Below the pieces are notes generated by a model. It did not search any database and was not told the origin of the DNA. It was given only the letters and a program-made list of their open reading frames with translations. This document shows positions 9,004-35,354 of a stretch of 64,000 nucleotides of DNA, one piece after another. How positions within the stretch are numbered: the first letter of the stretch is position 1; each line of letters begins with the position of its first letter. The stretch is from Frankia sp. QA3 (GTDB lineage Bacteria; Actinomycetota; Actinomycetes; Frankiales; Frankiaceae): positions 2,538,597 to 2,602,596 of the forward strand of contig NZ_CM001489.1 of NCBI RefSeq assembly GCF_000262465.1, given 5' to 3'. Both the position numbers and the translations under genes were made by a program.

Positions 9004-10620
9004 ATGACGGACGTCGCCGAGGGCGGGACGGCCGCCCGCCGCGCCGCCCTGCGCGAGCTGGCGGACAAGTGGCAGATCCATCAGACGACGATCCGGCTGT
9101 GTCACGGGCTCGACCAGGTGGACGAGGAGATCGTCGCGGCTACCTTCCATCCCGAGGCCGAGGCGACCGTCACGGCCCGCGACGAGGAGATCGTCCTGCG
9201 CGGTGCGGCGCGGGTGACGTCGGCCCTCCTGGCCCGCGCCCCGGCGGATCCAGGCGCGTTCGTGGCGCACAGGTCCTTCAATCCCCGCATCGAGCTGCAG
9301 GGGGACCGGGCCGTCTGCGAGACGTACCGCACCGCGTTCGTCGGCCTTCTCGACCCGGTCACCGGGCGGGGCCGGGCACAGCACACGTTCGGCCGCTGCA
9401 CGGATCTGTTCGAGCGCCGCGCCGGGATCTGGCGGATCCTGCGCCACCACGTCGAGGAGCTCTGGGTACACCGCCCTGTCGACGGGGGGAGCTGGCCGCG
9501 GCGCGCCGAAAGCCGGCGCGACCGCAGCGACCCCTCGTACCACCTCTTCGACGAGGTGGAGACCGCCGGCGCCGACAGCCCCGGCGCCGACAGCCCCGGC
9601 GCCGACAGCCCCGGCGCCGGCGACCCGGATCGCGATCGCGACGACGGCGCGGAGGAGACCGCACTGCGCGACGCCGTCGACGGCTGGCTCGTCTACGAGA
9701 CGGTCGTCCGCTACTGCCGTGGGGTGGACCGCTTCGACGAGGACCTCCTCGCCGCGGTGTTCCATCCCGACTCCACCACGGCGAAGGTCTGGAGCGCCGC
9801 CGAGCCGGACGTGGTCATCCTCGACGGCGCGGACATCGCCGCGATCACCATCGCGAAGGCGCGGGAGGCCTATACGGACACCTTCACCCTGCACTCGGTC
9901 ACCACCCCGCTCATCGAGATCCGCGGCGACTTCGCCTCCAGCCAGAACTGGTCGGGAGCCTCCCGCGGCCTCACCCGCTGCCTCGACCTCTTCGAACGTC
10001 GGGACGGGCGGTGGCGGGTGCGCCGCCGGCGGGTCCTCGGCGGTTGGAGCCAGCCGGGGCCGGCCGGCGGGCGCCGGATCGACGCCGCCGACAGCCGGCA
10101 GGACCGCTCGGATCCGAGCTACCGGTTCCTCGCGTGGCCGAGCCGGCCGGCCGTGGCCGAGACCGCCGGGGAGAGCGACGCCGACCTCGTGGCGGACAAG
10201 TGGCAGGTCTTCGAGACGGTCGTCCGGACCTGGCACAGCATCGACCGGGGCGAGGAGCGGCTGCTGGCGTCGGCGTTCCATCCCGACGCCAGCCTGACGA
10301 CGAGAACGTGTGCGGACGGCCCCGTCGACGTCCACGGTACGGAGGTCGCCGCCGCCCTGCTGCGCCACCTCGGGCAGGGCGTCACTCTGCACCTGGCGAT
10401 GAATCCCTGGATCGAGGTGCGCGGCGACCGCGCCGCCTGCGAGACCCACCTCACCGTCCTTGTCGTCCCCCGGCAGCTCGACGACACGGCGGTCGTGCAC
10501 CAGAGTCTCGGCCGCTGCCTGGATCTGTTCGAACGCCGCGACGGGAGCTGGCGCATCCTGCGCCGTCAGATCATCCCCGGCTGGTATGAGCCCCATCCGG
10601 TTCTTCACCGACCGAACTAA
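9004..10620 (+). CDS. Three tandem SnoaL-like (NTF2-fold) domains
   Basis: 538 residues built of three copies of a roughly 140-residue SnoaL_4-type domain, at about 15-165, 215-365 and 390-535. Each copy opens with a helix of the form W-Q-x-x-x-T-x-x-R followed by a D-x-x-(D/E) pair and FHP(D/E). It then has an (A/L)H-x-x-x-x-P-x-IE(V/L/I) strand and ends in C-(T/L)DLFERR. Copies 1 and 2 are followed by a DRSDPSY tail. The linker after copy 1 is a three-fold ADSPG repeat (9571-9615). SnoaL-like domains include dehydratases, cyclases, hydrolases and isomerases acting on small hydrophobic substrates. Triple fusions are unusual. The ATG at 9004 follows GGGATACGGAG. Confidence 0.8.
   Translation: MTDVAEGGTAARRAALRELADKWQIHQTTIRLCHGLDQVDEEIVAATFHPEAEATVTARDEEIVLRGAARVTSALLARAPADPGAFVAHRSFNPRIELQGDRAVCETYRTAFVGLLDPVTGRGRAQHTFGRCTDLFERRAGIWRILRHHVEELWVHRPVDGGSWPRRAESRRDRSDPSYHLFDEVETAGADSPGADSPGADSPGAGDPDRDRDDGAEETALRDAVDGWLVYETVVRYCRGVDRFDEDLLAAVFHPDSTTAKVWSAAEPDVVILDGADIAAITIAKAREAYTDTFTLHSVTTPLIEIRGDFASSQNWSGASRGLTRCLDLFERRDGRWRVRRRRVLGGWSQPGPAGGRRIDAADSRQDRSDPSYRFLAWPSRPAVAETAGESDADLVADKWQVFETVVRTWHSIDRGEERLLASAFHPDASLTTRTCADGPVDVHGTEVAAALLRHLGQGVTLHLAMNPWIEVRGDRAACETHLTVLVVPRQLDDTAVVHQSLGRCLDLFERRDGSWRILRRQIIPGWYEPHPVLHRPN
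9571..9615 (+). repeat. 15-base tandem repeat encoding an ADSPG linker
   Basis: Three perfect copies of GCCGACAGCCCCGGC, in frame, in the linker between the first and second SnoaL-like domains. One of several 5-codon repeats in linkers or tails across this window. Confidence 0.9.
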
Positions 10621-10654
10621 CTAACACGAACCTCAGACGGACCGATCTGTTCTG

Positions 10655-10687
10655 CTGTTGCAACAGGGAACGGTTAAAGGTTATGCT
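10655..10687 (+). promoter_or_regulatory. Palindrome and candidate internal promoter before the second binding protein
   Basis: CTGTTGCAACAG at 10655-10666 is a perfect 12-bp palindrome. It overlaps TTGCAA (10658-10663), which is 18 bases ahead of TATGCT (10682-10687); together they make a weak but plausible -35/-10 pair. It lies in the 385-base gap 10621-11005, the only large break in the transporter gene run, so a second promoter with an operator is likely here. I find no gene in the rest of that gap. Confidence 0.4.
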
Positions 10688-11005
10688 CTTCCATATCACC
10701 GGTACGACGCCGGCCATATCCTACGGCGAATTCGCCGACGGCCAGCCGCGTTGAGCACCTTCCCGGCGCCGCGGTTCCGACCGGCCACGCCGCCGTGGAA
10801 CGCCGCGAAAACCGGGACCTCAAACACCGGGAATCCAGGACCCCGAGGAACAAGAATCCGAGGAAATCCGAGTGCCACCCGAGCTCATCACGTTCTCCCA
10901 CCGCGCCGCGAGACGGCGCGGGCCGTTACCCTTTCTCCTGTTCGTGCCGCGGGGCGGCCACCGCCACCACGCGGAGGCGAGCCGCCGCTCCCGACGGGCG
11001 CGGCC

Positions 11006-12586
11006 GTGATCCGGCGGCTGCGGGCCGTCGCGGCGCTGGCGGCCGCCACCGTCGCCGCGGGAGTGATCGGCGCCTGCGGGTCGTCGGATTCATCCTCCGC
11101 CACCCGTTCGATCACGGTGCTGCAGGGGTTCTCACCGACCTCCTTCGATCCCGCCACCATCGCCTCCGTGGGAAGCAGCGACGGATCCGTCGGCTATGCC
11201 GTCTACGACAACCTGTTCCGCATCGAATACTCGACCGGCAGGTTCATCCCCCGGCTCGCAACGTCCCTGACCCCGAACGAGGACGCCACCGTCTGGACGC
11301 TGCAGATCCGTGCGGGCGTGAAGTTCAGCGACGGGACCCCGTTGAACGCGGAGGCCGTCCGGTTCAACTGGGATCGGATCCGGGACGACCCGGCGCTGGC
11401 CTCGCCGTGCTATTCGACGATCAAGGGACTGAAGTCCTACCAGGTCACCGCTGCGCAGACACTCGTGATCAGGCTTCCCGAACGGCGCAGCGCCTTCCCC
11501 CAGCAGCTGTTCAGCAGCGGTCAGGTACGCGGCGGCTTCTGCACCAACGTGGCCTCCCCGACAGCACTGCGCCGGTACGCGGCGCGCTACGGCACGAGTC
11601 CCGAGACGACCGTCGGCGCCGGTCCCTTCGTGCTGAAGGAATGGGTGCGGGGAGACCACCTGACGCTGTCCAGGAACGCGGGTTACTGGGATGCTCCGCG
11701 CCCGTATCTCGACGGGATCACGGTGAAGCCGTCCCCGGACATCACGACCTCCGTCAACGCCGTGCTGACCGGAGCGGCGGCGCTCGCCGGAGTCGGCGCC
11801 TGGACCCCGGATGTGGCGCGTTACGTGCAGGCCGGCTACAAGTACCACGTCGAACTGACCAGTGGCGCGGCGATGGTCACCTTCAACCCCGCCCGGGCGC
11901 CGCTCGATGACGTCCGGGTCCGCACGGCCCTCACCCTGGCCACCGATCTCGAGGAGATAAACCGGAAGAACTTCGCCGGCCTGGTCACCCCGGCCAGGAC
12001 GTGGTTCTCGGAGAAGTCGGTGTTCTACGACGCCGAAGCGGCCAAGGCCAGCACGCAGCGGACGAACGACCTCGCGGCGGCGCAGCGGCTGATTGACGAG
12101 TACGTGGCCGAGAAAGGCGGCCCGGTGAAGGTCACCCTGCTGGCGTCACCGACCAACCTTCCGTTGTTCACGACCCTGCAACAGCAGTGGCACCGCCTCC
12201 ACGACGTCAAGGCCGAGATCGAGCAGGTGACCGGCCAGGTATGGAACCAGCGCAATATCCAGGGCCAGGCCCAGATAGCACTGAACTCGCTGGGCGCGAA
12301 CGACGTGGAGGGTATGATCGCGTCATTCGGCGCGGGCGGTGCGCAGAACTACTTCAAGTGGTCCGACCCGCAGCTGGAGAAAATCCTTATGCAGGCGCGA
12401 CCGGAGAACAATCAGAGCGAGCAGCGGAAGCTGATGACCTCGGCCGCGCAGCGCCTTTCCGAACTGCACTGGTTCGTCATGCTCTACCGGCCCGGCCAGG
12501 AGACTCTCGTCGGCAAGGACCTGACGAACATCGTGCTGCACGACCCGTCCCAGGTCGATCTCGCTCAACTCCAGCTCAAGAACTGA
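11006..12586 (+). CDS. Solute-binding lipoprotein, SBP_bac_5 family (second)
   Basis: 526 residues. Starts GTG at 11006 with basic residues (VIRRLR), a hydrophobic helix and a lipobox VIGAC at about residues 18-22, which fixes this start over longer upstream options. The mature protein shows SFDPATIASVGSSDGSV, VKFSDGTPLNAEAVRFNWDR and GAGPFVLKEWVRGDHLTL, all typical of OppA/DppA-type binding proteins. Its sequence is clearly different from the first binding protein, so the two probably bind different or differently modified ligands. A triple SnoaL-like gene follows it, as with the first binding protein. Confidence 0.87.
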   Translation: MIRRLRAVAALAAATVAAGVIGACGSSDSSSATRSITVLQGFSPTSFDPATIASVGSSDGSVGYAVYDNLFRIEYSTGRFIPRLATSLTPNEDATVWTLQIRAGVKFSDGTPLNAEAVRFNWDRIRDDPALASPCYSTIKGLKSYQVTAAQTLVIRLPERRSAFPQQLFSSGQVRGGFCTNVASPTALRRYAARYGTSPETTVGAGPFVLKEWVRGDHLTLSRNAGYWDAPRPYLDGITVKPSPDITTSVNAVLTGAAALAGVGAWTPDVARYVQAGYKYHVELTSGAAMVTFNPARAPLDDVRVRTALTLATDLEEINRKNFAGLVTPARTWFSEKSVFYDAEAAKASTQRTNDLAAAQRLIDEYVAEKGGPVKVTLLASPTNLPLFTTLQQQWHRLHDVKAEIEQVTGQVWNQRNIQGQAQIALNSLGANDVEGMIASFGAGGAQNYFKWSDPQLEKILMQARPENNQSEQRKLMTSAAQRLSELHWFVMLYRPGQETLVGKDLTNIVLHDPSQVDLAQLQLKN

Positions 12587-12647
12587 CGGGACCAGCTCAG
12601 GAGATGACGGGACCAGGAATGGCGGACGAGACAACGAGGGAGCGGAG

Positions 12648-14360
12648 TTGACGGACCTGCGAGCGGCCGCGGACCGGTGGCGGATCTACGAGACCATCGT
12701 GCGGGTCTGCCGCGGCGTCGACCGGACCGACCATGCACTCGTCGCCTCCGGCTTCCATCCGGACGCGGTGGCCACCAAGGCCCGAGGAACGGAGGTGGCC
12801 ACGCTCACGGGCGCCGAGATCCCCGCCGTGCTGACCCGCGACACCCCGCAGCGGGCGGGCTCGCTCAGCCTGCACCTGGCCTTCAATCCCGTCATCGACG
12901 TGCGCGGCGACCGGGCCACGTGCGACACCGCCTACCTGGAGCTGGCCGTGCCACGTCAGCCCGGCCCCGACGGGGTCGAGCTTGCCTTCGGCCGCACCCT
13001 GGACCTGTTCGAACGTCGCGGCGGGGGGTGGCGGATCCTGCGTCGTCAGGTCATCGACGGTTGGCACCAGCCGCTGGCCGCCGGTGGTCACTGGCGGCGT
13101 CCCGACGACGGATCGCGCGATCGTGACGACCCGTCCTACCAGGTCCTCGACACGGGGGACGCCGACACGGGGGACGCCGACACGGGGGACGCCGTCACCG
13201 CGGGCACCGACGACGGCGCCGTCGAGGAGTTCGCCGAGAAGTGGCGGATCTACGAGACCGTGCTGCGCTATTCCCGTGGCGTCGACCGCGGGGACCAGGA
13301 TCTGATCGCCTCGGTGTTCCACCCCGACTCCACGACCGTGAAGAGCTGGGGCGGCGAGGAGCTGGTGACTCTCGACGGCCGCACCATCGCCGCCGTCACT
13401 GCGGAGAAGGCCAGGGCCGCCTTCGGCGACAGCTTCGTCCTGCACGGGCTGTCGAACCCCTACATCCAGGTGCGCGGCGACCGGGCCGCCGTCGAGACCT
13501 ACGCGCTCGGCGTCATCGCCCCCTGGAAGGAGCCGGACGGCACGGTCACCGACCATCAGGGCTTCAGCCGCTGCCTCGACGTGCTGGAACGTCGGGACGG
13601 CCAGTGGCGGATCCTGCGCCGGCGCGCCATCGGCGGCTGGAGCCAGCCGCAGCTTCCCGGTGGGACCCGCTGGGACGCCGAGGTCAGCACCCGCGACCGA
13701 CGCGACCCGTCCTACCACGTGTTCGAGTGGGCCGGCACCACCGACAGCACCCCCGAAGCCGACGGCGCGCCCACCACCGACAGCACCCCCGAAGCCGACA
13801 GCACACCCACCGCCGGCAGGGCACCCGCCACCGCCACGGCGACCAGCCTCGAGGACGTCACCGCCCGCTGGGAGATCTACGAGGCCGTCGTGCGGTACTG
13901 CCGCGGGGTGGACCGTGGCGACGTCGACGCCATCGCCGCGGCCTTCCACCCCGACGCCACGGTCACGACCAAGGTCTGGGGCAGCGAGGAGGTGACGCTG
14001 ACGGGCCCGCAGATCGTCCCGTTCCTCGCCGAACGCGCGCGCGGGGACGATCACGGCTTCAGTCAGCACCTGATCTTCAATCCCCTGGTCGAGGTGCGCG
14101 GCGACCTGGCGTCCTGCGAGACGTACTACGCCGTGCTCGTCATCCCCGCGACGGTCGGCCCCGACACCTCGCTCGTCCAGAGCTTCGGTCGCTGCCTGGA
14201 CCTGTTCGAGCGCCGGGACGGCGTCTGGCGCATCCGGTACCGCCGCAGCATCCCCGGCTGGTGGCAGCCGCTGCCGCCCGGCGGTTACGACCTCGACCGC
14301 ACGAGCCGGCGAGACCGGACCGATCCCTCCTACCACCTCTTCGAAACGGTGAACCGTTGA
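12648..14360 (+). CDS. Three tandem SnoaL-like (NTF2-fold) domains (second copy)
   Basis: 570 residues, a paralogue of the 9004-10620 product with the same plan: domains at about 1-165, 185-350 and 400-565. All three carry a (V/L/I)xR-x-(C/S)RGVDR helix, FHPD, an H-x-x-x-NP-x-(I/V)(D/Q/E)V strand and DRxDPSY tails. The first linker is a DTGDA repeat, the second is rich in Thr, Pro and Glu. The TTG at 12648 follows GGGAGCGGAG. It is coupled to the next gene by TTGA. The pairing of a binding-protein gene with such a triple-domain gene occurs twice in this operon, suggesting the domains act on the imported ligand; this is inference. Confidence 0.8.
   Translation: MTDLRAAADRWRIYETIVRVCRGVDRTDHALVASGFHPDAVATKARGTEVATLTGAEIPAVLTRDTPQRAGSLSLHLAFNPVIDVRGDRATCDTAYLELAVPRQPGPDGVELAFGRTLDLFERRGGGWRILRRQVIDGWHQPLAAGGHWRRPDDGSRDRDDPSYQVLDTGDADTGDADTGDAVTAGTDDGAVEEFAEKWRIYETVLRYSRGVDRGDQDLIASVFHPDSTTVKSWGGEELVTLDGRTIAAVTAEKARAAFGDSFVLHGLSNPYIQVRGDRAAVETYALGVIAPWKEPDGTVTDHQGFSRCLDVLERRDGQWRILRRRAIGGWSQPQLPGGTRWDAEVSTRDRRDPSYHVFEWAGTTDSTPEADGAPTTDSTPEADSTPTAGRAPATATATSLEDVTARWEIYEAVVRYCRGVDRGDVDAIAAAFHPDATVTTKVWGSEEVTLTGPQIVPFLAERARGDDHGFSQHLIFNPLVEVRGDLASCETYYAVLVIPATVGPDTSLVQSFGRCLDLFERRDGVWRIRYRRSIPGWWQPLPPGGYDLDRTSRRDRTDPSYHLFETVNR
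13149..13193 (+). repeat. 15-base tandem repeat encoding a DTGDA linker
   Basis: Three perfect in-frame copies of GACACGGGGGACGCC in the linker between the first and second SnoaL-like domains, at the same place as the unrelated ADSPG repeat in the paralogue. Confidence 0.9.
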
Positions 14361-25197: not shown

Positions 25198-26067
25198 TCA
25201 TGATCTTCTCTGCGCCGCAATTCTGGTGACGCCGGCCGTCGCAGGGGCGTGGTGTTCGGCCGCTGATTCCGGGACCGGCTGTGCCCCTCGCATCATGGCG
25301 ACCACGGCGGCCCGGCTCTGCAGGCCCAGCTTGCGATAGATCTGCTCAAGGTGTTTGTTCACGGTGCGCGGGCTGATTCCCAGGGCGCGGGCGATCTCGC
25401 GGTCACCGATCCCGTCGACGAGGCGAGCCACCACCTCACGTTCCCGGGGGGTCAGCCCCGACAGGCGGCCGGCAGCCCGCTCCGACGCCGAGGCGTGGCG
25501 CTGGGCATCCCGCAGCGCGCAGGTCAGCCGGGTGAGCCGCTCCCGGTGCACGATCGCCTGGCAGACCAGAGGCGAGACGAGATCGAGCAGCTCCCGGGCC
25601 CGCCCGGAGAACCCTCGTCGTGACCGGTTGAAGACGAGCAGCGTGCCCTGGTGGCGGCCGACCGTCACGATGTTCAGCAGCTGGTCATGGGTCTGGCGTG
25701 GCCGGTAGAAGTCGGCGTAGATCGGCAGGCTGCGCAGGGTGCGGAGGTCCACGAGGTCCGTCAGAGCCACGGAGCTGCCGGTGGGCAGCCGTCGTTCCCG
25801 GTGGGCGACGAACGCCGGATGCTGCCCGAGCACCGCGGCGAAGGCGGCCGACTCGCTGAGGTCGGTGCTCGCCGGCTCGACGACGGTCGCCAGCAGCCGC
25901 CGGCTGGCGTGGTCAACCCGGCAGTAGGACGCCGAGTCGCAGCCGACCATGGCCGCCAGCCGCGCCAGCACCGGAGTCGGCATCTCGCCGCCCACAGTGT
26001 CTGCGTGTAGGACGCCCACCAGCTCCAGAATATCTCGCAAGTCCTTCTTGGTGGCTTCCGCCGGCAT
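25198..26067 (-). CDS. LuxR-family transcriptional regulator
   Basis: 289 residues. The C-terminal LuxR/FixJ HTH is at about 204-259: GLTPREREVVARLVDGIGDR, then REIARALGISPRTVNKHLEQ. The N-terminal 200 residues form an unassigned sensor-like domain (GAF/PAS-like in length), without a phospho-acceptor pattern. The ATG at 26067 follows GGAGG seven bases ahead. Residues about 140-183 are duplicated, nearly identical, at 33018-33148. Target unknown; it is divergent from a secreted-protein gene. Confidence 0.85.
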   Translation of the reverse strand: MPAEATKKDLRDILELVGVLHADTVGGEMPTPVLARLAAMVGCDSASYCRVDHASRRLLATVVEPASTDLSESAAFAAVLGQHPAFVAHRERRLPTGSSVALTDLVDLRTLRSLPIYADFYRPRQTHDQLLNIVTVGRHQGTLLVFNRSRRGFSGRARELLDLVSPLVCQAIVHRERLTRLTCALRDAQRHASASERAAGRLSGLTPREREVVARLVDGIGDREIARALGISPRTVNKHLEQIYRKLGLQSRAAVVAMMRGAQPVPESAAEHHAPATAGVTRIAAQRRS

Positions 26068-26318
26068 ATCCACACCTCCTCCTGCGCCCGCGAGCGCACG
26101 CGGTTCCTTGCGCGAGGATTCCATACACGGCTAGCCTGGGGACGCGGTTGTCCGCCAGAAGACACAATGATTCCTGGTCGCCGTGGGACTCGGGCCCCGG
26201 CTACGCAGAAGTGCGTATTCCTCGGTGGCCCACCGAACTGGTTCGGTGAGGTCGACACATTCAGGCGGCCACGCTTCGACGAGTGCGGCGTGGCCCATTT
26301 CGAAAGAGGTCGACCGAG

Positions 26319-26774
26319 ATGTCTCGTTCCATCGTCACCCGCTCCCGTCTGTTCGTCGCCGCGACCGCGCTGGCCGTGACCGGAGCCCTCGGGGGGACGG
26401 CGCTCGCCGCCGACTCCCAGGCGGACAACACCGGGGAGTCGTCGCCGCGCACGTCGAACGCGCCGGCGGCCAGCGCGCTGCCCGTCGACGCCCCCCGCTT
26501 CGCCGTGATCGACCAGTTCGGCCAGGTGGTCCGCGGCAGCCTGGGCGTCACCGCCGGTCTCACCAGCGCGCAGAACGTCGAGGTGCTGTTCGACCGGGAC
26601 ATCCGAGGTTGCGCCTACACGGCGACCATCGGCGGCAAGGCGAACGACGTGCCGCCGCCCGGGTTCATCACCGCGTCGCAGCGCGCCGGGAAGGCCAACG
26701 GCGTCTTCGTGGCGATGCGCAACAGCGACCTCACCAAGGCGGTTCTGCCGTTCCACCTGACCGTCACCTGCTGA
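26319..26774 (+). CDS. Secreted protein of unknown function
   Basis: 151 residues from the ATG at 26319. A classical Sec signal peptide: basic start (SRSIVTRSR), hydrophobic core, and a likely cut after GTALA at about residue 30. The mature part has two Cys (in RGCAY and at the very C-terminus, VTC) that could form a disulfide, and a beta-rich pattern (FAVIDQFGQVVRGS, VFVAMRNSD). Members of this kind are common exported proteins in actinomycetes; I do not recognise a named family. Confidence 0.6.
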   Translation: MSRSIVTRSRLFVAATALAVTGALGGTALAADSQADNTGESSPRTSNAPAASALPVDAPRFAVIDQFGQVVRGSLGVTAGLTSAQNVEVLFDRDIRGCAYTATIGGKANDVPPPGFITASQRAGKANGVFVAMRNSDLTKAVLPFHLTVTC

Positions 26775-26878
26775 CGGTCGTCGCCGGCACGGCGGCGGCC
26801 GGTCCCCTGGCGGCCGTCGCCGTGCCCAGCTCGCGGGTGAACCTCGCTTCTCGGTGGCGCTGGTGTAGCACTGGATTC

Positions 26879-27733
26879 GTGCAGCCTCTCTCGGTCGTCA
26901 TCGTTCACCGTGATCAGCCGAAGCGACTCGTCGACACGATCGACGCGTTCCGCGCGCAGGACGTTCCTGTCGCGATCACGATCGTCGACAACGGATCAGC
27001 GGTCGTGCCGCCGGTCGAGGCCGCCGACGTCGCGGTCGTGCTGGCCGGCGCCAACCTGGGGTTCGGACCGGCGGCCAACGTCGGCTACCGGGCGTTCCTC
27101 GCCGATGAGGACGCGGGCGAGTGGGTGGTGCTCGCGCCGCACGACGCGCTGCCCGAGGTCACATGCCTGAGCCACATGCTGAGCGTGCTGGCGGAGCAGC
27201 CACGCGCGGGGTTGGCGTGCGCCGACGTCGGCGACGCGGCGACGCCGGTCATCGACCCCTACTTCGGCGGGATCCTCGTGCCGGCGAGCGTCGACGAAGG
27301 CTGGGAGCCGGCCGGCCACCCACACGGCACGCTGATGTTCGCTCGGCGCGCGTGCCTCGACGAGGTCGGGATCTTCGACGAGCGCTACTTCGCGTACTGC
27401 GAGGAGGCGGACCTTGCGCTGCGGGCGAGGTCCGCCGGTTGGGAATCCGGACTCGTGCGGGGCGCGATGGTCACCAACCCGCACATCAGCTCGACCTCCG
27501 CAGCGATCGACTACCTGCAACTTCGCAACACCCTGCTGCTCGTGCGGGAGCACTCCGGCCGCTACCACGCGTTCATCCGTCTCTGCATCGCGCTGTGGCA
27601 CCTCGCCTCAGGCGCAGTCGTACCGGCCCGGCGCGGCCCCTACTGGAACCTCGAAGGGCGCCTGCGCGCGCTGTTCGACTTCCTCCGCGGACGCTTCGGC
27701 CCTCCCCCTGCGCACCTGCTCGCCAAGCGCTGA
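26879..27733 (+). CDS. Family 2 glycosyltransferase (rhamnosyltransferase-like)
   Basis: 284 residues. GT-A fold start PLSVVIVHRDQPKRL, nucleotide-binding IVDNGS, a NLGFGPAANVGYR motif, and FDERYFAYCEEADLALRARS, where the E-x-D pattern is typical of WbbL-type rhamnosyl and galactofuranosyl transferases. The GTG at 26879 immediately precedes the first strand. It transfers a sugar from a nucleotide donor to a cell-envelope acceptor; donor and acceptor are unknown. It stands alone. Its last 153 bases are duplicated at 33150-33303. Confidence 0.8.
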   Translation: MQPLSVVIVHRDQPKRLVDTIDAFRAQDVPVAITIVDNGSAVVPPVEAADVAVVLAGANLGFGPAANVGYRAFLADEDAGEWVVLAPHDALPEVTCLSHMLSVLAEQPRAGLACADVGDAATPVIDPYFGGILVPASVDEGWEPAGHPHGTLMFARRACLDEVGIFDERYFAYCEEADLALRARSAGWESGLVRGAMVTNPHISSTSAAIDYLQLRNTLLLVREHSGRYHAFIRLCIALWHLASGAVVPARRGPYWNLEGRLRALFDFLRGRFGPPPAHLLAKR

Positions 27734-28022
27734 CGTCGCAGCCAGGCAGGAACGATCATCCACGTGGTGCTGACGCCCGTTCTGCCATCACCCGTAGGCA
27801 TCGGGCGTAGACCCGATACCCGCTGATCGCCGAGACCGGCGGCCTGCCGGTGGCGTGCTGGTTCGGGTCCTCGCAGCACTCGCCGGCGCGGACACCGACA
27901 CGGTCATCCCGCCGCTCGAACAAGCCCTCGACCAACGCTGAGACAACGCGAGCGACCCGACCGAGCTGGTTCCACGCGACCCGCCGAGGCGCCCCTTCCC
28001 ACCGTCATGCCATGATCAGATC

Positions 28023-28502
28023 ATGATTGCGCTCAGCATTACGGCACTCATACTGTCCTTCCTTGCCGTTGTCGTCTCAGTACGGCAGGCGCGGTATGCT
28101 CGCCAGGCAAACCATCTACCGCTGGCCGTCGACATCATTCAGTGGTATCGGACGCCAGATTTTCAGGATTCCTATGCGTGCGTGCGAGACGAACTCGGTT
28201 CGCACAGCCCGTCCCAAGGACTGGCAGGGCTTCCCGAGCCGGTGCGCAAGAAGTCACTTGACGTAGCGTACTTCTTCAACTCGATCGCCTGCCTGGTCAA
28301 GTACGGAGTGGTGGACGAGAAATTCGTGATGGCAATCCAGCATTTCGCCATACTAAACAGCTGGGAGGCGCTCCGGCCGTACATCATGGCGGAACGGGAC
28401 AGAGAAAGACCGATCGGTTATTTTAGATTCTTCGAGCACCTCGCCAAACGTTCCGAAGGACTGCCGAGAGAAAAGATCTGGAAAGGACTGGAACACTACT
28501 GA
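28023..28502 (+). CDS. DUF4760-like small membrane-anchored protein
   Basis: 159 residues. An N-terminal TM helix (IALSITALILSFLAVVVSV) is followed by a soluble helical domain with QWYRTPDFQDSY, and AYFFNSIACLVKYGVVDEKF. This matches the DUF4760 type of hypothetical proteins found in many bacteria. Base composition is visibly lower in GC than the neighbours, with A/T in third positions, so recent transfer is likely. The ATG at 28023 lacks a strong ribosome-binding site. The 289-base gap before it holds only an apparent gene tail (VLAALAGADTDTVIPPLEQA, ending at about 27942). Confidence 0.5.
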   Translation: MIALSITALILSFLAVVVSVRQARYARQANHLPLAVDIIQWYRTPDFQDSYACVRDELGSHSPSQGLAGLPEPVRKKSLDVAYFFNSIACLVKYGVVDEKFVMAIQHFAILNSWEALRPYIMAERDRERPIGYFRFFEHLAKRSEGLPREKIWKGLEHY

Positions 28503-28829
28503 AGGTTTCCTGCGGGCCTAGTTGACATCAACTTTGGCCATCTCATCGTCCCGATCGCGAACGCCGAGCCATCATCCACTCCGAGGCCGGACAGCAGCGG
28601 GACCGGCACCTCGCCGCACGTGCTTGCGCCGGTGGTCGTCCCGACCAGCTCCCGCATCAGCGGACTCGCGGGAAGAATATCAATGTCCTTCCAGGCTGAG
28701 GCAGATCGACCTCGACCTGCGGGCTGAGTCTCGGTCATGCCGGTTGCCTTCCAACGGCCACTGATCCCACCGCACCCCCAGGCGCCGACAGCCGCTCTGG
28801 GAAGCGATCGCTCGCCCAGTAGGCGTCGG

Positions 28830-29030
28830 CTATAGTGCACGATGTCGAGGGCGTGGGCACGGTAGACGACGACGTCCGGACACCGACTGGTCAGCGGCAC
28901 ATCCTTAAGCCGGACGTCGACGTCGAAGTCCGCGTTCCAGGCCGGCCCGACAGCAGCCTCCAAACGCGACCGCGAGGATCTTGACCAACTGGTTGTGACG
29001 CTTGGACGCGCTACTCGGCCTCATGGCCGC
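28830..29030 (-). pseudogene. Uma2-family endonuclease-like remnant, frameshifted
   Basis: The minus strand reads [12 protein letters not shown], then after a one-base shift LEAAVGPAWNADFDVDVRL and SRCPDVVVYRA. This is the first half of the Uma2 (DUF820) family, PD-(D/E)XK-like proteins with a PDVVV motif. The rest is lost and runs into unrelated sequence down to 28496. A dead gene. Confidence 0.5.
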
Positions 29031-29406
29031 GAACGTATTCGTGGCCCTCAGTAACGGCTCCCGATTTGTCGGCACCTCGGTCACATGGCACGACTACTTC
29101 GCCGTCGGCAACGAGGTCCCGTTGGGCGCGTCGTTCTGGTGATCCGGTGACCTTCGGGTAGCGGGTCGAGAGCTGCCCGAAACTGCTCGCCGGATTCGCG
29201 GGGGCGGGCGTCACGACCTCGCGGCGTCCGCCCCCGGTCTCATACTGGTTGGCGGGAATATCCCGATCCGCACTCCCCGCTGTGGGTGGCCGAGTAGGCG
29301 GCGCCGTGTCGTCACGTGGTTACGGCAGCCGGTGGGCTTGTGTCGCAGCCCTGGACGCGCTGGCCGGGGTGGAACTGGTCGACCCGGGCCAGACCTTCGG
29401 TGTAGG
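29031..29406. other. Gap between the Uma2 remnant and the MFS gene
   Basis: 376 bases. A plus-strand frame reads [20 protein letters not shown] before stopping at about 29142 and could be the tail of a lost gene. Nothing else is recognisable. Confidence 0.25.
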
Positions 29407-30858
29407 TCATGGATGGATGCTTTTCGTCGACGGCTGCTCGTCCACCGCCCGCGGCTGGCGCTCGAGGCACCCTGGTCTCGCTGGCGCGCGTCCGGGCAGC
29501 AGCGCACTCGCGGCAAGGGCGGCAGCGGTGAACACGAGCATCCAAGTAAGTGCCGAGGCGAAGCCACTCGCCTGGAGAATGACGGCGGTCAGCGCCGTGC
29601 CGCAGGCGGCACCGACACGCTGGACGACGGTGCTGGCGCTGGTGGCCCCGGGGACCGCTGTCGGTCGCAACGTTGTGTAGAGGGCAACGCTGACGGGCAG
29701 GCTGGCGACGCCGAGTCCGAGGCCGCGCACGAACAGGGCCAAGCCGAGCATCCGCAGATCACTGTGATCGGTTGCGAAGACGAAAGGCACGGTGGCGGCG
29801 GTGGCGACGGTCAGACCGGCGGCCGCGACGGGACGCGGAGCCACCCGATCGGTATAGCGCCCGACCACCAGGAACGCCAGCCCCAGCCCGATGCTCTGGG
29901 GTGCGAGCGCGAAACCCGCATCCAGCGCGGACAACCCCCGAAGCTGCTGAAAGTAGAGCGGGAACAGGAGCATGGGGCCCCAGGTCGTGACTCCGAGGAC
30001 GAACATCATCATCGTGGCGCCCCGCAACGACCGGTCCCTGAAAAGTCCCGGATCGATCAGGCTGGCCGCGCCGCGGCGCCTCGATCGCACGACGAACGCC
30101 GTCAGGAGGGCCGCGCCGACGACGAGGGCGGCCACCGAACCGGCCGGCCGGCCGGACAGAGCGGCCTCGAGGCTGGACAACGCGTAGATCAACGCGACCA
30201 CCGCGGCCGGGAGCAGGAGTAGACCGACGACGTCGAGCGGCTGGCCGGAGCGATGCTCGTCGCGTGGGAACCAGCGCCAGGTCATGGTCAGCGAGATCAG
30301 CACGATCGGGATGTTGACCAGGAATACCCATCGCCACCCCCAGGTGTCGATGAGTAGGCCGCCCAGCACCGGCCCGGACACGGGGGCGAGCTGCCCGGCG
30401 AGGCCCACGACGCCCATCACACGCCCAAAACGCTCCGGCCCGGCCTCCCGCGCCACTATGAGCTGAGTCAGGGGAAGGATCATGCCGCCGCCCAGCCCCT
30501 GCAGCACCCGGAAGGCAATCAGGGCGGTCGCCGACCAGGCCAGCCCGGACAGCACCGAACCGGCCAGGAACAGTCCGAGGGCCGACACCCACATCCTTCG
30601 AGCCCCGAACCGACCCACGGACCAGCCCACCACGGGAATGACCGCGGTCATCGCCAGCACGTACGACGTGGTGACCCATTGGATCGCCGTCACCGTCGCA
30701 TCAAGATCGTGACGGAGCTGGTCGAGCGCCACGGCGACGATCGTGGTGTCGAGCAGTGCCGCGATCGCACCGACGAGCAGCGTCGTGGCCAGCGGCACGA
30801 TACTCGCGGCTTCCGCACCGGTGCGGGTGCCGATCACCGGCCCGGCCGGCCCGGTCAT
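29407..30858 (-). CDS. MFS drug-efflux transporter, DHA2/EmrB type (14 TM)
   Basis: 483 residues with about 14 TM helices. Landmarks of the drug:H+ antiporter-2 family: LDTTIVAVALDQLRHDL in helix 1, the QWVTTSYVLAMTAVIPVVGW helix, GRFGARRMW between helices 2 and 3, RVLQGLGGGMILPL, and GPVLGGLLIDTWGWRWVFLVN (motif C region). It should export toxic organic compounds in exchange for protons. ATG 30858 overlaps the stop of the oxidoreductase gene (ATGA), so the two are co-translated and probably controlled by the divergent TetR protein. Confidence 0.87.
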   Translation of the reverse strand: MTGPAGPVIGTRTGAEAASIVPLATTLLVGAIAALLDTTIVAVALDQLRHDLDATVTAIQWVTTSYVLAMTAVIPVVGWSVGRFGARRMWVSALGLFLAGSVLSGLAWSATALIAFRVLQGLGGGMILPLTQLIVAREAGPERFGRVMGVVGLAGQLAPVSGPVLGGLLIDTWGWRWVFLVNIPIVLISLTMTWRWFPRDEHRSGQPLDVVGLLLLPAAVVALIYALSSLEAALSGRPAGSVAALVVGAALLTAFVVRSRRRGAASLIDPGLFRDRSLRGATMMMFVLGVTTWGPMLLFPLYFQQLRGLSALDAGFALAPQSIGLGLAFLVVGRYTDRVAPRPVAAAGLTVATAATVPFVFATDHSDLRMLGLALFVRGLGLGVASLPVSVALYTTLRPTAVPGATSASTVVQRVGAACGTALTAVILQASGFASALTWMLVFTAAALAASALLPGRAPARPGCLERQPRAVDEQPSTKSIHP

Positions 30859-31808
30859 GGGATCAGGAGGGTCTTGCCGATGGTCGTGCGTCCCTCGATG
30901 GCGCGGTGAGCCTGCGCCGCCTCGGCTAACGGATAGGTCTGACCGATCACCGGGTGGAGGTGGCCGGCAGCCGCGAGGCTCAGTGCCTCCTGCGCGAAGC
31001 CGCGGATCTCCACCGGGCTCGGCACGCCGGCGTCGGGGACGACGCGCACCTGCTGCGGCCCGGGATCGGTCCAGCTCCCGGCCGCCATGCCGTAGAGGCT
31101 CACCCGTCCACCCGGGCGCAAGGTCGTCACGGCCCGCGCACCGAGCTCGCCGCCGACACCATCGAAGATCAGGTCGACACCCGAGCCGGTCGCCGCGAGG
31201 ACCTCCCGCTCCCATCCCTGCATTCCGTAATCGACATAGCCGACCGCACCGAGTCTGGTCACCAGTGCACCCTTGGCCTCGCCGCCGGCGGCGCCGATTA
31301 CCTTCGCCCCCGTTCTCACCGCCAGCTGGACGAGCAGGCTGCCGAGCCCACCGCCGGCGGCGAGGACGAGCACCCGCTCCCCCGGCGTCACCGCCGCGCG
31401 CCGGTGCAGCATCACGGCGGTGCGACCGTCCGCGAGCAGGGCCGCGGCGTCGCGCATCGACAGCCCGGCCGGGAGGGGGATGATGTCGGCCACGTTGGCG
31501 ACGGCGAGCTCGGCGTAGCCACCGGTTCCGCCCGTCGTGGTCACGACCGGAGTTTCGACGAGATCTCCCGCAACGTCGGGGCCGACGGCCGTAACCAGAC
31601 CGGCGACCCCGTTGCCGGGGATCCGCGGCAACGGCGGGCGCTGCCGGGCTGCCGGGCCTCGCCCGCCCCGCACCTGCGTCTCGACAAACGTGATGCCGGC
31701 GTACTCGACCGTCACCAGCACCTGCCCCGGCCCCGGCGAGGGGTCCGCCACCTCGCGGTACTGGAGCACCTGCGGGCCACCGAACCGCTCCATGACGACA
31801 GCGTGCAC
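30855..31808 (-). CDS. Zinc-free MDR quinone oxidoreductase
   Basis: 317 residues. Medium-chain dehydrogenase/reductase of the quinone oxidoreductase class: HAVVMERFGGPQVLQYREV at the start, IPGNGVAGLVTAVGPDV, the NADPH-binding AAGGGLGSLLVQLA at about 162-175, and no structural-zinc cysteines. It reduces quinones or enones with NADPH. The GTG at 31808 has GGGAGGTG about nine bases ahead; the longer frame to 31850 would enter the operator region. It forms an operon with the efflux gene. Confidence 0.85.
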   Translation of the reverse strand: MHAVVMERFGGPQVLQYREVADPSPGPGQVLVTVEYAGITFVETQVRGGRGPAARQRPPLPRIPGNGVAGLVTAVGPDVAGDLVETPVVTTTGGTGGYAELAVANVADIIPLPAGLSMRDAAALLADGRTAVMLHRRAAVTPGERVLVLAAGGGLGSLLVQLAVRTGAKVIGAAGGEAKGALVTRLGAVGYVDYGMQGWEREVLAATGSGVDLIFDGVGGELGARAVTTLRPGGRVSLYGMAAGSWTDPGPQQVRVVPDAGVPSPVEIRGFAQEALSLAAAGHLHPVIGQTYPLAEAAQAHRAIEGRTTIGKTLLIP

Positions 31809-31838
31809 GCCTTGAGCACCTCCCCTCTCCTGCCACCT

Positions 31839-31894
31839 CAATCGGAGCAATGCACTCCGATTGCCCGCACACTATAACGGAGCGATTTGCTCCG
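31839..31894. promoter_or_regulatory. Paired 17-bp palindromic operators between TetR and the efflux operon
   Basis: Two sites share the pattern CGGAG-N7-CTCCG: 31843-31859 (within a longer 9-bp-arm inverted repeat at 31839-31863) and 31878-31894. Their centres are 35 bp apart, and an A/T-rich stretch (ACTATAAC, 31871-31878) lies between them. The position between divergent genes fits auto-repression by the TetR protein and repression of the oxidoreductase-MFS operon. Confidence 0.65.
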
Positions 31895-31913
31895 CAACGA
31901 TAGGATTGCGCCC

Positions 31914-32585
31914 GTGACCGGGAGCAGACGCCGCGCGCCTCGCCAGGCCGAGGCCGAACGCAATGACCGGGCTCTGCTGCAGGCGGCCCGGGACGTGCTG
32001 GCTCTCGAGGGCTCCCATGCCTCCGTCGCCGCGATCGCCGCCCGCGCCGGAGTCGGGATCGGCAGCCTCTACCGCCGCTACCGCAGCAAGGAGGAGCTCT
32101 TCCAGCGGCTGTCCCTGCTCTCCCTGGAACACTGGAACGAGGCCGCTGAACGCGGCCTCGCCGCGGCCGACCCCTGGGACGGACTGGTCGGCTTCATCAC
32201 GTCATGCGTCGAGTTCGGACAGGGCACGCTGGCACCGATCGCCGGGACGATCGAGATCACGGAGGAGATGGCGGCCAGGAGCGCACAAGGCGACGCCCTG
32301 CTGGCCACGCTCGTCGCCCGCGCCCGCGCAGCCGGCGTGCTGCGCCCCGACGTGACGGCCGTCGACGTCTCCCTGCTCATCGAACAGCTCGGGGGGTCGC
32401 CGGTCCTCGACCAGCTCCGCCGACAGGGCCGTGACGACCTCATCGACGCAGCCACCCGGGCCCGCAACCGACTCATTGCCATCTGCCTGGACGGTCTGCG
32501 CACAGGCGGCGCCGTCCGCCCGCTGCCCGGCCCCGCGCCCACCGACGAGCTCTTCGACGAACGCTGGGTCCGCGGCCCGAGCTGA
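31914..32585 (+). CDS. TetR-family regulator of the divergent efflux operon
   Basis: 223 residues. The DNA-binding domain spans about 20-65: NDRALLQAARDVLALEG, then the HTH with IAARAGVGIGSLYRRYRSKE. The C-terminal domain is like those of TetR repressors of antimicrobial efflux (LIEQLGGSP...). The GTG at 31914 is preferred because the alternative TTG at 31887 lies inside the second operator. It most likely binds the two palindromes upstream and represses both directions until a ligand is present. Confidence 0.85.
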   Translation: MTGSRRRAPRQAEAERNDRALLQAARDVLALEGSHASVAAIAARAGVGIGSLYRRYRSKEELFQRLSLLSLEHWNEAAERGLAAADPWDGLVGFITSCVEFGQGTLAPIAGTIEITEEMAARSAQGDALLATLVARARAAGVLRPDVTAVDVSLLIEQLGGSPVLDQLRRQGRDDLIDAATRARNRLIAICLDGLRTGGAVRPLPGPAPTDELFDERWVRGPS

Positions 32586-32609
32586 GAAGGGTACGGTCGA
32601 CGGATCGGA

Positions 32610-32781
32610 GGGCGGGAACACCTCCCACCATGTCACGCCGGTGGCGGCCGCCGTCTTCTCGAGCAGAGCTCGACGGGCCCGCGGGCTACGGGCTGCCGTA
32701 GCCACGGTGACCGACGCCGTACCGTGGATCGTCGTGAACACCCACTTCCACGGTGATCAGTCGATCGAGGCCCGCGGCTGA
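32610..32781 (+). pseudogene. Metallo-beta-lactamase-fold hydrolase fragment
   Basis: A plus-strand frame contains HHVTPVAAAVFSSR, then TDAVPWIVVNTHFHGDQ, the first metal-binding motif (HxHxDx-like, with the last residue changed) of MBL-fold proteins. The protein start and the whole part after the motif are missing. First of a row of four gene fragments. Confidence 0.45.
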
Positions 32782-32859
32782 CCTCAGGGAAGCGGGCGGT
32801 GCCCTGCCAGGCCAGGGGCGGACGCTCAGCGCGGAAACACAACGGCTCCGCGAGGAGCT

Positions 32860-33010
32860 CTGTTGCACTCCGTGGGGTCGAGGTGTCCCGTTCTTCACCT
32901 CCGGCACGCCGAGGATCGAGCCGACCGTGAAAGGGTCGATCGAGCTGGAGTAGATCGTGAACCCGTCCAGATCGTCGGTGGTCAGCCCGGCGTCCGTCAG
33001 CGCTGCCAGG
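32860..33010 (-). pseudogene. Thiolase/lipid-transfer-protein N-terminal fragment
   Basis: The minus strand reads PILAALTDAGLTTDDLDGFT and then SSIDPFTVGSILGVPEVK, typical of the first 60 residues of thiolase-like (SCP-x type) proteins. The start codon region and the catalytic core are missing; the frame is fused to the LuxR fragment. Confidence 0.5.
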
Positions 33011-33017
33011 ATGGGCT

Positions 33018-33148
33018 TGCAGGCCAGCCGGGTGAGCCGCTCCCGGTGCACGATCGCCTGGCAGACCAGAGGCGAGACGAGATCGAGCAGCTCCCGGGCC
33101 CGCCCGGAGAACCCTCGTCGTGACCGGTTGAAGACGAGCAGCGTGCCC
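33018..33148 (-). pseudogene. Duplicated internal piece of the LuxR regulator gene
   Basis: About 131 bases here match 25518-25648 almost perfectly; I find one difference by eye in the part I aligned (T at 25524, C at 33024). It encodes the same TLLVFNRSRRGFSGRARELL segment. It has neither start nor HTH, so it is a dead copy. Confidence 0.85.
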
Positions 33149-33149
33149 G

Positions 33150-33303
33150 CTCTGCATCGCGCTGTGGCACCTCGCCTCGGGCGCAGTCGTACCGGCCCGG
33201 CGCGGCCCCTACTGGAACCTCGAAGGGCGCCTGCGGGCGCTGTTCGACTTCCTCCGCGGACGCTTCGGCCCTCCCCCCTCCGCACCTGCTCACCAAGCGC
33301 TGA
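33150..33303 (+). pseudogene. Duplicated 3' end of the glycosyltransferase gene
   Basis: Matches 27581-27733 with a few changes (for example A27610 to G, a G-for-C change and an inserted base near CCTCCCCC). It ends exactly at the duplicated TGA stop. It is joined directly to the LuxR fragment, which lies 1.9 kb away from it in the original. Confidence 0.85.
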
Positions 33304-33398
33304 GGGTCTCGCGAGAGCCGGTTGGAACGTACTGTCGGTCGAGGGGTTCTCGGCGGGGTCCTTCCCTGAACGCCCAATCGATTGGAGACTTCCGTTCT

Positions 33399-35354
33399 GT
33401 GAGCATCCTCGACGACGCCCGCGAGGGCATGGACCTCGACGTACGACCGCAGGACGACCTGTTCGGCCACGTGAACGGCCGGTGGCTCGCCGAGACGGAG
33501 ATCCCGTCCGACCGCTCAAGCTGGGGCCCGTTCGTGCAGCTGGCCGATGCCGCCGAGCAGCAGGTCCGCGACATCATCACCGACCTCGCCGCGCAGGACC
33601 CGGCCACCCAGGGCGAGGACGCCCGGAAGATCGCCGACCTCTACAACTCCTTCCTGGACACCGAGGCGATCCAGGCGCTCGGCCTGGGCCCGGTGCGGTC
33701 GCTGCTGGACGGCGCGCGTGGCCTGCGCGACGTCCGCGACCTCGCCGCGTTCCTCGGCGAGCTGGAGCGGACCGGCGGCCCCGGGTTGTTCGGCTCCTAC
33801 GTCGACACCGACGACCGCAACTCCGACCGCTACCTGTTCCACCTGGGCCAGGGGGGCCTCGGCCTGCCGGACGAGTCGTACTACCGCGACGACAGGTTCG
33901 CCCCGACGCGCGAGAAGTACGTCGCCTACCTGACCCGCATGCTCGGGCTGGGAGAGCACCCCGACCCCGAGGGCGCCGCGCAGCGGATCCTCGCCCTGGA
34001 GACCCTGCTCGCGAAGGGCCACTGGGAGCGGGCCGAGACCCGCGACGTCCAGAAGACCTACAACCTGACCACGGCCGAGGAGCTGACGGCGCTGTGCCCG
34101 GCCTTCGCCTGGGACGCCTACGTCACCGGTCTCGGTGGGCAGCTGACCGGCCCGCACGCGACGCTGGCGGAGGCGTGCGTGCGCCAGCCGTCGTACTTCG
34201 CCCACCTCTCGACCGTGCTGACCGACACGCCGATCGAGGTGTGGCGCGACTGGGTGCTCAGCCGCGTGCTGCGAACGGCGGCGTCGTACCTGCCCGACGC
34301 GTTCGTCGAGACTCATTTCGACTTCTACGGCCGCACGCTCAGCGGCACGCCCGAGCTGCGGGCCCGCTGGAAGCGCGCGGTGGCGTTCGTCCAGGGCGCG
34401 ATCGGTGAGGCCGTCGGCAAGGAGTACGTCGCCCGCCATTTCCCGCCGCGCGCCAAGGCGCAGATGGACGACCTCGTCGCGAACCTGCTCGCGGCCTACC
34501 GCGAGTCGATCTCCCGGCTGGACTGGATGACGGAGGAGACCAAGCTCCGGGCGTACGACAAGCTCGAGACGTTCCGGCCGAAGATTGGCTACCCCGACCA
34601 GTTCCGGGACTACTCGGGGCTGCGGGTCCGCCGCGGCGACCTGATGGGCAACGCCCTGGCCGCCGCCGCGTTCGAGACCGACCGGCAGCTGGCCAAGATC
34701 GGTGCACCGGTCGACCGCGACGAGTGGTTCATGCTCCCGCAGACCGTCAACGCCTACTACAACCCCGGCACCAACGAGATCTGCTTCCCGGCCGGCATCC
34801 TGCAGAGGCCGTTCTTCAGCCCTGACGCCCACCCGGCCGAGAACTACGGGGGCATCGGCGCGGTCATCGGCCACGAGGTCGGCCACGGCTTCGACGACCA
34901 GGGAGCGCAGTACGACGGCGCCGGCAACCTCAACGACTGGTGGACCCCCGCCGACAAGGCTGCCTTCGAGGTGAAGTCGAAAACGCTGGTGGAGCAGTAC
35001 AACGCGTTCGAGTCGCGCAACCTGCCGGGCGAAAAGGTGAACGGCGCACTCACCGTCGGCGAGAACATCGGTGATCTCGGCGGCCTGACCATCGCGCACC
35101 GGGCCTACGTCATCTCCCAGGACGGTGAGGCGTCGCGCGACGACCGGCGGCGGCTGTTCATGAACTGGGCCTACGTGTGGCGCACCAAGCGGCGGCTCGA
35201 GCTCGAGCGGCAGTACCTCACCACCGACCCCCACAGCCCGCCGGAGCTGCGCGCCAACATCGTGCGCAACCTCGACGAGTTCCACGAGGTCTTCGACACC
35301 GCGCCCGGCGACGGGCTGTGGCTGGACCCGGCCGACCGGGTCCGCATCTGGTAG
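33399..35354 (+). CDS. M13-family zinc metallopeptidase (neprilysin/PepO-like)
   Basis: 651 residues, the usual length of bacterial M13 peptidases. Zinc site GHEVGHGFDDQG at about 489-500 (HExxH), third ligand Glu in ENIGDLGG at about 555, substrate-binding NAYYNPGTNEICFPAGIL, and the C-terminal W of the family (VRIW). There is no signal peptide, so it is a cytoplasmic endo-oligopeptidase that degrades peptides. The N-terminal MDLDVRPQDDLFGHVNGRW is typical. GTG at 33399, with GGAGA 11 bases ahead. Single gene; its promoter region is the edge of the fragment graveyard. Confidence 0.93.
   Translation: MSILDDAREGMDLDVRPQDDLFGHVNGRWLAETEIPSDRSSWGPFVQLADAAEQQVRDIITDLAAQDPATQGEDARKIADLYNSFLDTEAIQALGLGPVRSLLDGARGLRDVRDLAAFLGELERTGGPGLFGSYVDTDDRNSDRYLFHLGQGGLGLPDESYYRDDRFAPTREKYVAYLTRMLGLGEHPDPEGAAQRILALETLLAKGHWERAETRDVQKTYNLTTAEELTALCPAFAWDAYVTGLGGQLTGPHATLAEACVRQPSYFAHLSTVLTDTPIEVWRDWVLSRVLRTAASYLPDAFVETHFDFYGRTLSGTPELRARWKRAVAFVQGAIGEAVGKEYVARHFPPRAKAQMDDLVANLLAAYRESISRLDWMTEETKLRAYDKLETFRPKIGYPDQFRDYSGLRVRRGDLMGNALAAAAFETDRQLAKIGAPVDRDEWFMLPQTVNAYYNPGTNEICFPAGILQRPFFSPDAHPAENYGGIGAVIGHEVGHGFDDQGAQYDGAGNLNDWWTPADKAAFEVKSKTLVEQYNAFESRNLPGEKVNGALTVGENIGDLGGLTIAHRAYVISQDGEASRDDRRRLFMNWAYVWRTKRRLELERQYLTTDPHSPPELRANIVRNLDEFHEVFDTAPGDGLWLDPADRVRIW

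Follow-up and report, generated by a model that had tools for sequence, protein, structure and literature searches.

How did pieces of a LuxR-family regulator gene and a glycosyltransferase gene come to lie joined in the spacer before the M13 peptidase gene of Frankia sp. QA3? The window, meaning the whole stretch of 64,000 nucleotides that was analysed, covers positions 2,538,597-2,602,596 of a one-contig genome of 7,590,853 bp. The joined scrap is real, and it is ordinary debris of a rapidly rearranging genome, a fresh example of a kind already known. It is probably a dead gene relic, left by a nearby direct duplication of the LuxR and glycosyltransferase genes that was then eroded by deletions.

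Composition of the joined scrap

The scrap measures 285 bp, and the window holds both parent genes:

25198-26124, minus strand: LuxR-family regulator, intact parent (Pfam GerE, E 2.6e-16); the copied part is 25519-25648
26879-27733, plus strand: family-2-like glycosyltransferase, intact parent, 91-93% identical to five sister genomes; the copied part is 27581-27733
33019-33148, plus strand: repeat of 25519-25648 from the LuxR gene, in antisense to it
33150-33303, plus strand: copy of glycosyltransferase tail 27581-27733, reaching the stop codon and carrying a +1 frameshift

BLAST of the window against itself recovers both repeats. The LuxR copy is 99.2% identical to its parent, with one mismatch in 130 bp (E 5e-62). 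The original prediction had this repeat as 33018-33148 against 25518-25648; the repeat stands, and its left edge moves by one base to 33019. The glycosyltransferase match runs from 33147 to 33303 against 27577-27733, at 96.2% including gaps (E 1e-68), and a search of the own genome returns the predicted pairing of 33150-33303 with 27581-27733 at 97%. The order and strand of the parents are kept, as had been claimed, and the missing 1.9 kb of parental DNA between the pieces measures 1,932 bp. As the original prediction stated, the last codon of the glycosyltransferase copy is the stop codon of its parent (TGA, 33301-33303), and divergence is immediate beyond it. The copy has an insertion in a C run, which gives the frameshift, and has lost a T near its start.

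The glycosyltransferase has weak Pfam Glycos_transf_2 matches (E 1e-4), which lie under the curated cut-offs, and its start at 26879 is inferred from the sister open reading frame L112:8630-9484. The LuxR region 25251-26797 has 92% DNA identity to sister genome G002.

The scrap joins DNA and not reading frames. Its pieces comprise only 130 and 154 bp with no intact frame, and since the LuxR parent is on the minus strand, the glycosyltransferase parent is on the plus strand, and the copy is frameshifted, there is no fused gene. The earlier description as fused copies of two genes thus holds for the DNA join and fails for a gene fusion. A minus-strand open reading frame of 277 residues (32686-33519) spans the mosaic and has LuxR and thiolase residues in one frame, although this shared frame is likely due to chance. 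It matches no Pfam family, and automatic annotation may list it as a gene.

Nothing indicates a function for the scrap, and no product or function is expected. It is very improbable that the relic is kept for use, for instance by changing the region before the M13 gene or by yielding antisense RNA against luxR when transcription reads through from the TetR gene. A plus-strand transcript of 33019-33148 would pair with luxR mRNA, the TetR gene on its upstream side is also on the plus strand, and no plus-strand terminator-like site is found between the two. Against such a use, there is no promoter-like site, the Rfam scan of the whole window has no match, the scrap occurs in one genome only, and it is decaying by indels. 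The one terminator-like site near the scrap is weak and on the minus strand.

Age and authenticity of the copies

Identity to the own parents is 99% for the LuxR copy and 97% for the glycosyltransferase copy, compared with at most 92% to any other genome searched. Because they are nearer to their own parents than to any sister, the copies arose in this lineage. The joined pair has a single occurrence in the 7.59-Mb genome, and it is absent from the 58 genomes searched, none of which is of the same species. The differences number 1 in 130 bp for LuxR versus about 5 in 154 bp for the glycosyltransferase (Fisher p 0.22); as these divergences are not significantly different, a single event is compatible with both pieces.

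An assembly artefact that joins two reads of repeated sequence is scarcely credible. Substitutions, a frameshift, and a 1-bp deletion set the copies apart from the parents, the genome is a single contig, and like scraps occur all around and in the sister assemblies. The original preference for a real duplication over misassembly is thus borne out by the single contig, the point changes and small indels, and the affinity of the copies to their own parents.

Surroundings of the scrap

The scrap lies between an intact TetR gene and an intact M13 peptidase gene, together with pieces of other genes:

31887-32585, plus strand: TetR regulator (Pfam TetR_N, E 1.4e-12), the nearest intact gene to the left of the scraps
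32674-32763, plus strand: probable metallo-beta-lactamase-fold gene fragment of 30 residues with an NTHFHGDQ motif
32897-33026, minus strand: thiolase-like gene fragment, 89% DNA identity to G005:C1:3049224-3049353 and G012:C625
33305-33398, plus strand: upstream region of the M13 gene; the start of conservation varies with the genome, from 33313 to 33353
33399-35354, plus strand: M13-family metallopeptidase, intact and conserved in all relatives (84-95%; Pfam Peptidase_M13_N, E 1.6e-122)

The thiolase fragment abuts the LuxR piece on its left and was not noticed in the original prediction. Its parent gene is gone from this genome, where the best paralogue has 63% identity at the protein level. 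The parents of 32586-32896 were not found by DNA search, and the metallo-beta-lactamase assignment within it depends on weak protein matches: genes of G001, G004, and the own genome score E 4e-5 to 7e-4 at 53-57% identity. A transposable element or gene-capturing transposon was rejected as the source of the mosaic: no inverted repeats bracket 32897-33303, and no transposase domain was found among the annotated neighbours tested.

Eight bases are covered by both the thiolase and the LuxR piece at their joint, seven of them common to both parents (GCAGG[C/T]CA), and the LuxR and glycosyltransferase pieces share 2-3 bp, CC(G). These joints bring in a second account, in which one-step repair of a DNA break or a stalled fork before the M13 gene copied or captured pieces of the thiolase, LuxR, and glycosyltransferase genes at microhomologies. 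Possible routes are template switching, short-patch illegitimate recombination, or Ku-dependent end joining, and the genome has one Ku gene. The three pieces come from different genes, abut one another, and are alike in length (about 122, 130, and 154 bp), which fits such a repair, and template switching suits the extra thiolase piece somewhat better. Deletions, too, show microhomology of this kind. Independent capture from 7.6 Mb would rarely give two collinear pieces within 2.2 kb, and the thiolase piece could not have been copied from the present genome because its parent is gone. A one-step repair is the main alternative origin of the scrap but a distinctly less probable one than duplication and deletion.

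The second fused scrap and the unique stretch

The same spacer contains another scrap, about 5 kb away, next to a stretch that is unique to this genome:

27821-27941, plus strand: second fused scrap, 47 bp of MFS interior plus the last 75 bp of TetR to the stop codon; collinear matches of 89-92% to G009, G002, and G012
27942-33304, no strand: stretch unique to this genome; in G009 the TetR stop and the M13 upstream region are separated at this place by an 81-bp spacer (L112 has 81 bp between the counterparts of 27941 and 33328)
28841-29012, plus strand: Uma2-family gene scrap within the unique stretch; own 2749582-2749752 matches it at 87%

The 121-bp scrap at 27821-27941 has the same build as the LuxR/glycosyltransferase scrap, namely the interior of one gene followed by the tail of the next gene to its stop codon. 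The MFS and TetR genes are whole in G009, G002, and G012 (MFS_1, E 9e-41, and TetR_N, E 2e-13, in G009), and about 1.5 kb between the two pieces is missing in the window. Since the sister genomes have these ancestral whole genes, they show that the scrap is the deletion product of two collinear genes. This identical build also speaks against a one-step repair for the LuxR/glycosyltransferase scrap.

The unique stretch of 5.4 kb contains DUF4760, MFS, alcohol dehydrogenase, and TetR genes and scraps. Another partial copy of the Uma2-family scrap is present at own 2447291-2447401. The absence of 27942-33304 from the sisters, the low GC at its start (55% at 28000-28500), and the other scraps inside it would suit an island of these four genes that came from another Frankia with the scraps ready-joined. 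Such a transfer is improbable, as the identities of the copies to their own genes compared with those elsewhere would require a donor of nearly the same strain.

Gene order in sister genomes

G009 and G002 have the order glycosyltransferase, MFS transporter, TetR, and M13 peptidase, with 81 bp before the peptidase in G009. The glycosyltransferase is upstream of the peptidase in these two genomes and in the window, whereas it is downstream in G005, G011, and G012. An M13 peptidase relic of 72-76 bp is present upstream of the glycosyltransferase in G009 and G002 (L112:7591-7666, L113:358-428), and it adjoins the same small gene that separates the peptidase from the glycosyltransferase in G005. 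The relic is the remainder of a second peptidase copy, and with the MFS/TetR scrap it documents duplication and erosion by deletion at this site. A duplication of the neighbourhood followed by uneven loss would account for all these gene orders, and the full duplicate is not observed in the Frankia genomes studied here.

Tandem duplication and random loss is known chiefly from animal mitochondria, and the literature on it is nearly all about mitochondrial genomes. The Frankia locus resembles it in that the order of peptidase and glycosyltransferase differs between sisters and relics occur at the expected places, but differs in the lack of an observed full duplicate. A less decayed intermediate with a full second copy of LuxR and glycosyltransferase was found in none of the 58 genomes searched, all of other species. 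The comparison with relatives, which the original prediction proposed, thus yields the ancestral MFS-TetR state for the second scrap but no intermediate for the LuxR/glycosyltransferase scrap.

Proposed origin by duplication and deletion

In the preferred sequence of events, the LuxR block and the glycosyltransferase would first have come together in this lineage. Both genes would then have been copied nearby as one segment of at least 2.2 kb, in direct orientation, beside the M13 peptidase gene, and deletions would have removed nearly all of the redundant copy. One deletion of about 1.93 kb may have brought the interior of LuxR up against the glycosyltransferase tail, at a joint that shares only 2-3 bp. 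The thiolase piece would have a different source locus and would have been added by its own join, at a near-8-bp microhomology.

The pieces share order, orientation, and donor region, which supports this origin. Both would have entered in one duplication, the gap being a later deletion and not a jump during copying. The original prediction offered segmental duplication followed by deletion, or a template switch. The first is favoured because the MFS/TetR scrap, in the same spacer and of the same build, proves the deletion route at this site, and the second is possible. Against duplication and deletion, the thiolase fragment is non-local and abuts directly, and one duplication plus one deletion leaves it unexplained. 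Several other intergenic scraps in the survey below join unrelated loci, so patchwork joining also occurs, and these count in favour of a one-step repair. A mixed history of both processes is quite possible.

Frequency of short scraps

A limited sample of 1.26 Mb around the window (2.10-3.36 Mb) was surveyed for low-copy, non-tandem pairs of 60-600 bp with at least 85% identity. It contains 39 such pairs, the LuxR and glycosyltransferase pairs included. The partner lies within 20 kb in 12 of the 39 versus 3% expected (p 2e-9), and nine of these 12 nearby pairs are in direct orientation. Most 0.4-Mb stretches below 2.8 Mb have 7-12 pairs, and those beyond have 2-5. The controls, each a single 0.4-Mb stretch, have two pairs in G005 and one in G051, a distant member of the same class.

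Many pairs have one member in a gene and the partner in a spacer, according to simple GC-frame gene calling. Most parents are ordinary genes (LuxR, glycosyltransferase, thiolase, TauD, and ABC transporter), with transposases in two of the ten tested. Chains of abutting scraps are both collinear with a gap and joined from unrelated loci. It is conceivable, though unlikely, that single repair events in this part of the chromosome, by microhomology template switching or end-joining capture, build spacer patchworks from gene pieces of 60-150 bp, with donors preferentially within 20 kb. If so, the spacers would be a running record of local DNA-break repair.

A spacer copy of 115 bp at 1719-1833 is 98.3% identical to an ABC-transporter gene region 367 kb away (own 2173547-2173661). 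Two spacers outside the window (own 2255455-2255795 and 2237729-2237915) have pieces in common with one another and with a TauD-family gene (2627344-2628397). In one of them, a gap of 244 bp separates collinear pieces, much as in the LuxR/glycosyltransferase scrap.

Relation to known systems

Pseudogenes: Deletion bias is established as the main force eroding bacterial pseudogenes (PMC2916853). The Frankia scrap resembles their remnants as a short, non-coding remainder of redundant genes, with kb deletions and small indels. Unlike them, it joins two genes from opposite strands, and it comes from a recent duplicate and not from a sole copy.

Small variable segments: Illegitimate recombination is a major source of short variable segments in bacterial genomes (PMC2884548). 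These segments, described among strains within E. coli and other species, are likewise short and intergenic, have little or no flanking homology, and are ascribed to short-homology illegitimate recombination. The Frankia scraps differ in that their donors are identifiable genes of the same genome.

Frankia plasticity: Frankia genomes show IS-driven plasticity, with intergenic transposase remnants and deletion-prone regions (PMC2770080). The present scraps share the genus, the intergenic gene remnants, and the deletion-prone regions, but the IS remnants are transposases, whereas the parents here are mostly ordinary genes. A literature search returned no paper on gene-fragment mosaics in Frankia.

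The LuxR/glycosyltransferase scrap alone is of little weight and illustrates the loss of redundant gene copies in a large actinobacterial genome. Open reading frame callers may report chimeric frames in such spacers. Given the many two-copy scraps with mostly nearby donors in the 1.26 Mb, a comparison of strains would measure how often, and in what mode, illegitimate recombination occurs in Frankia. Comparison of the window with itself also detects diverged repeat arrays in direct orientation at 57336-57560 and 9280-14344.
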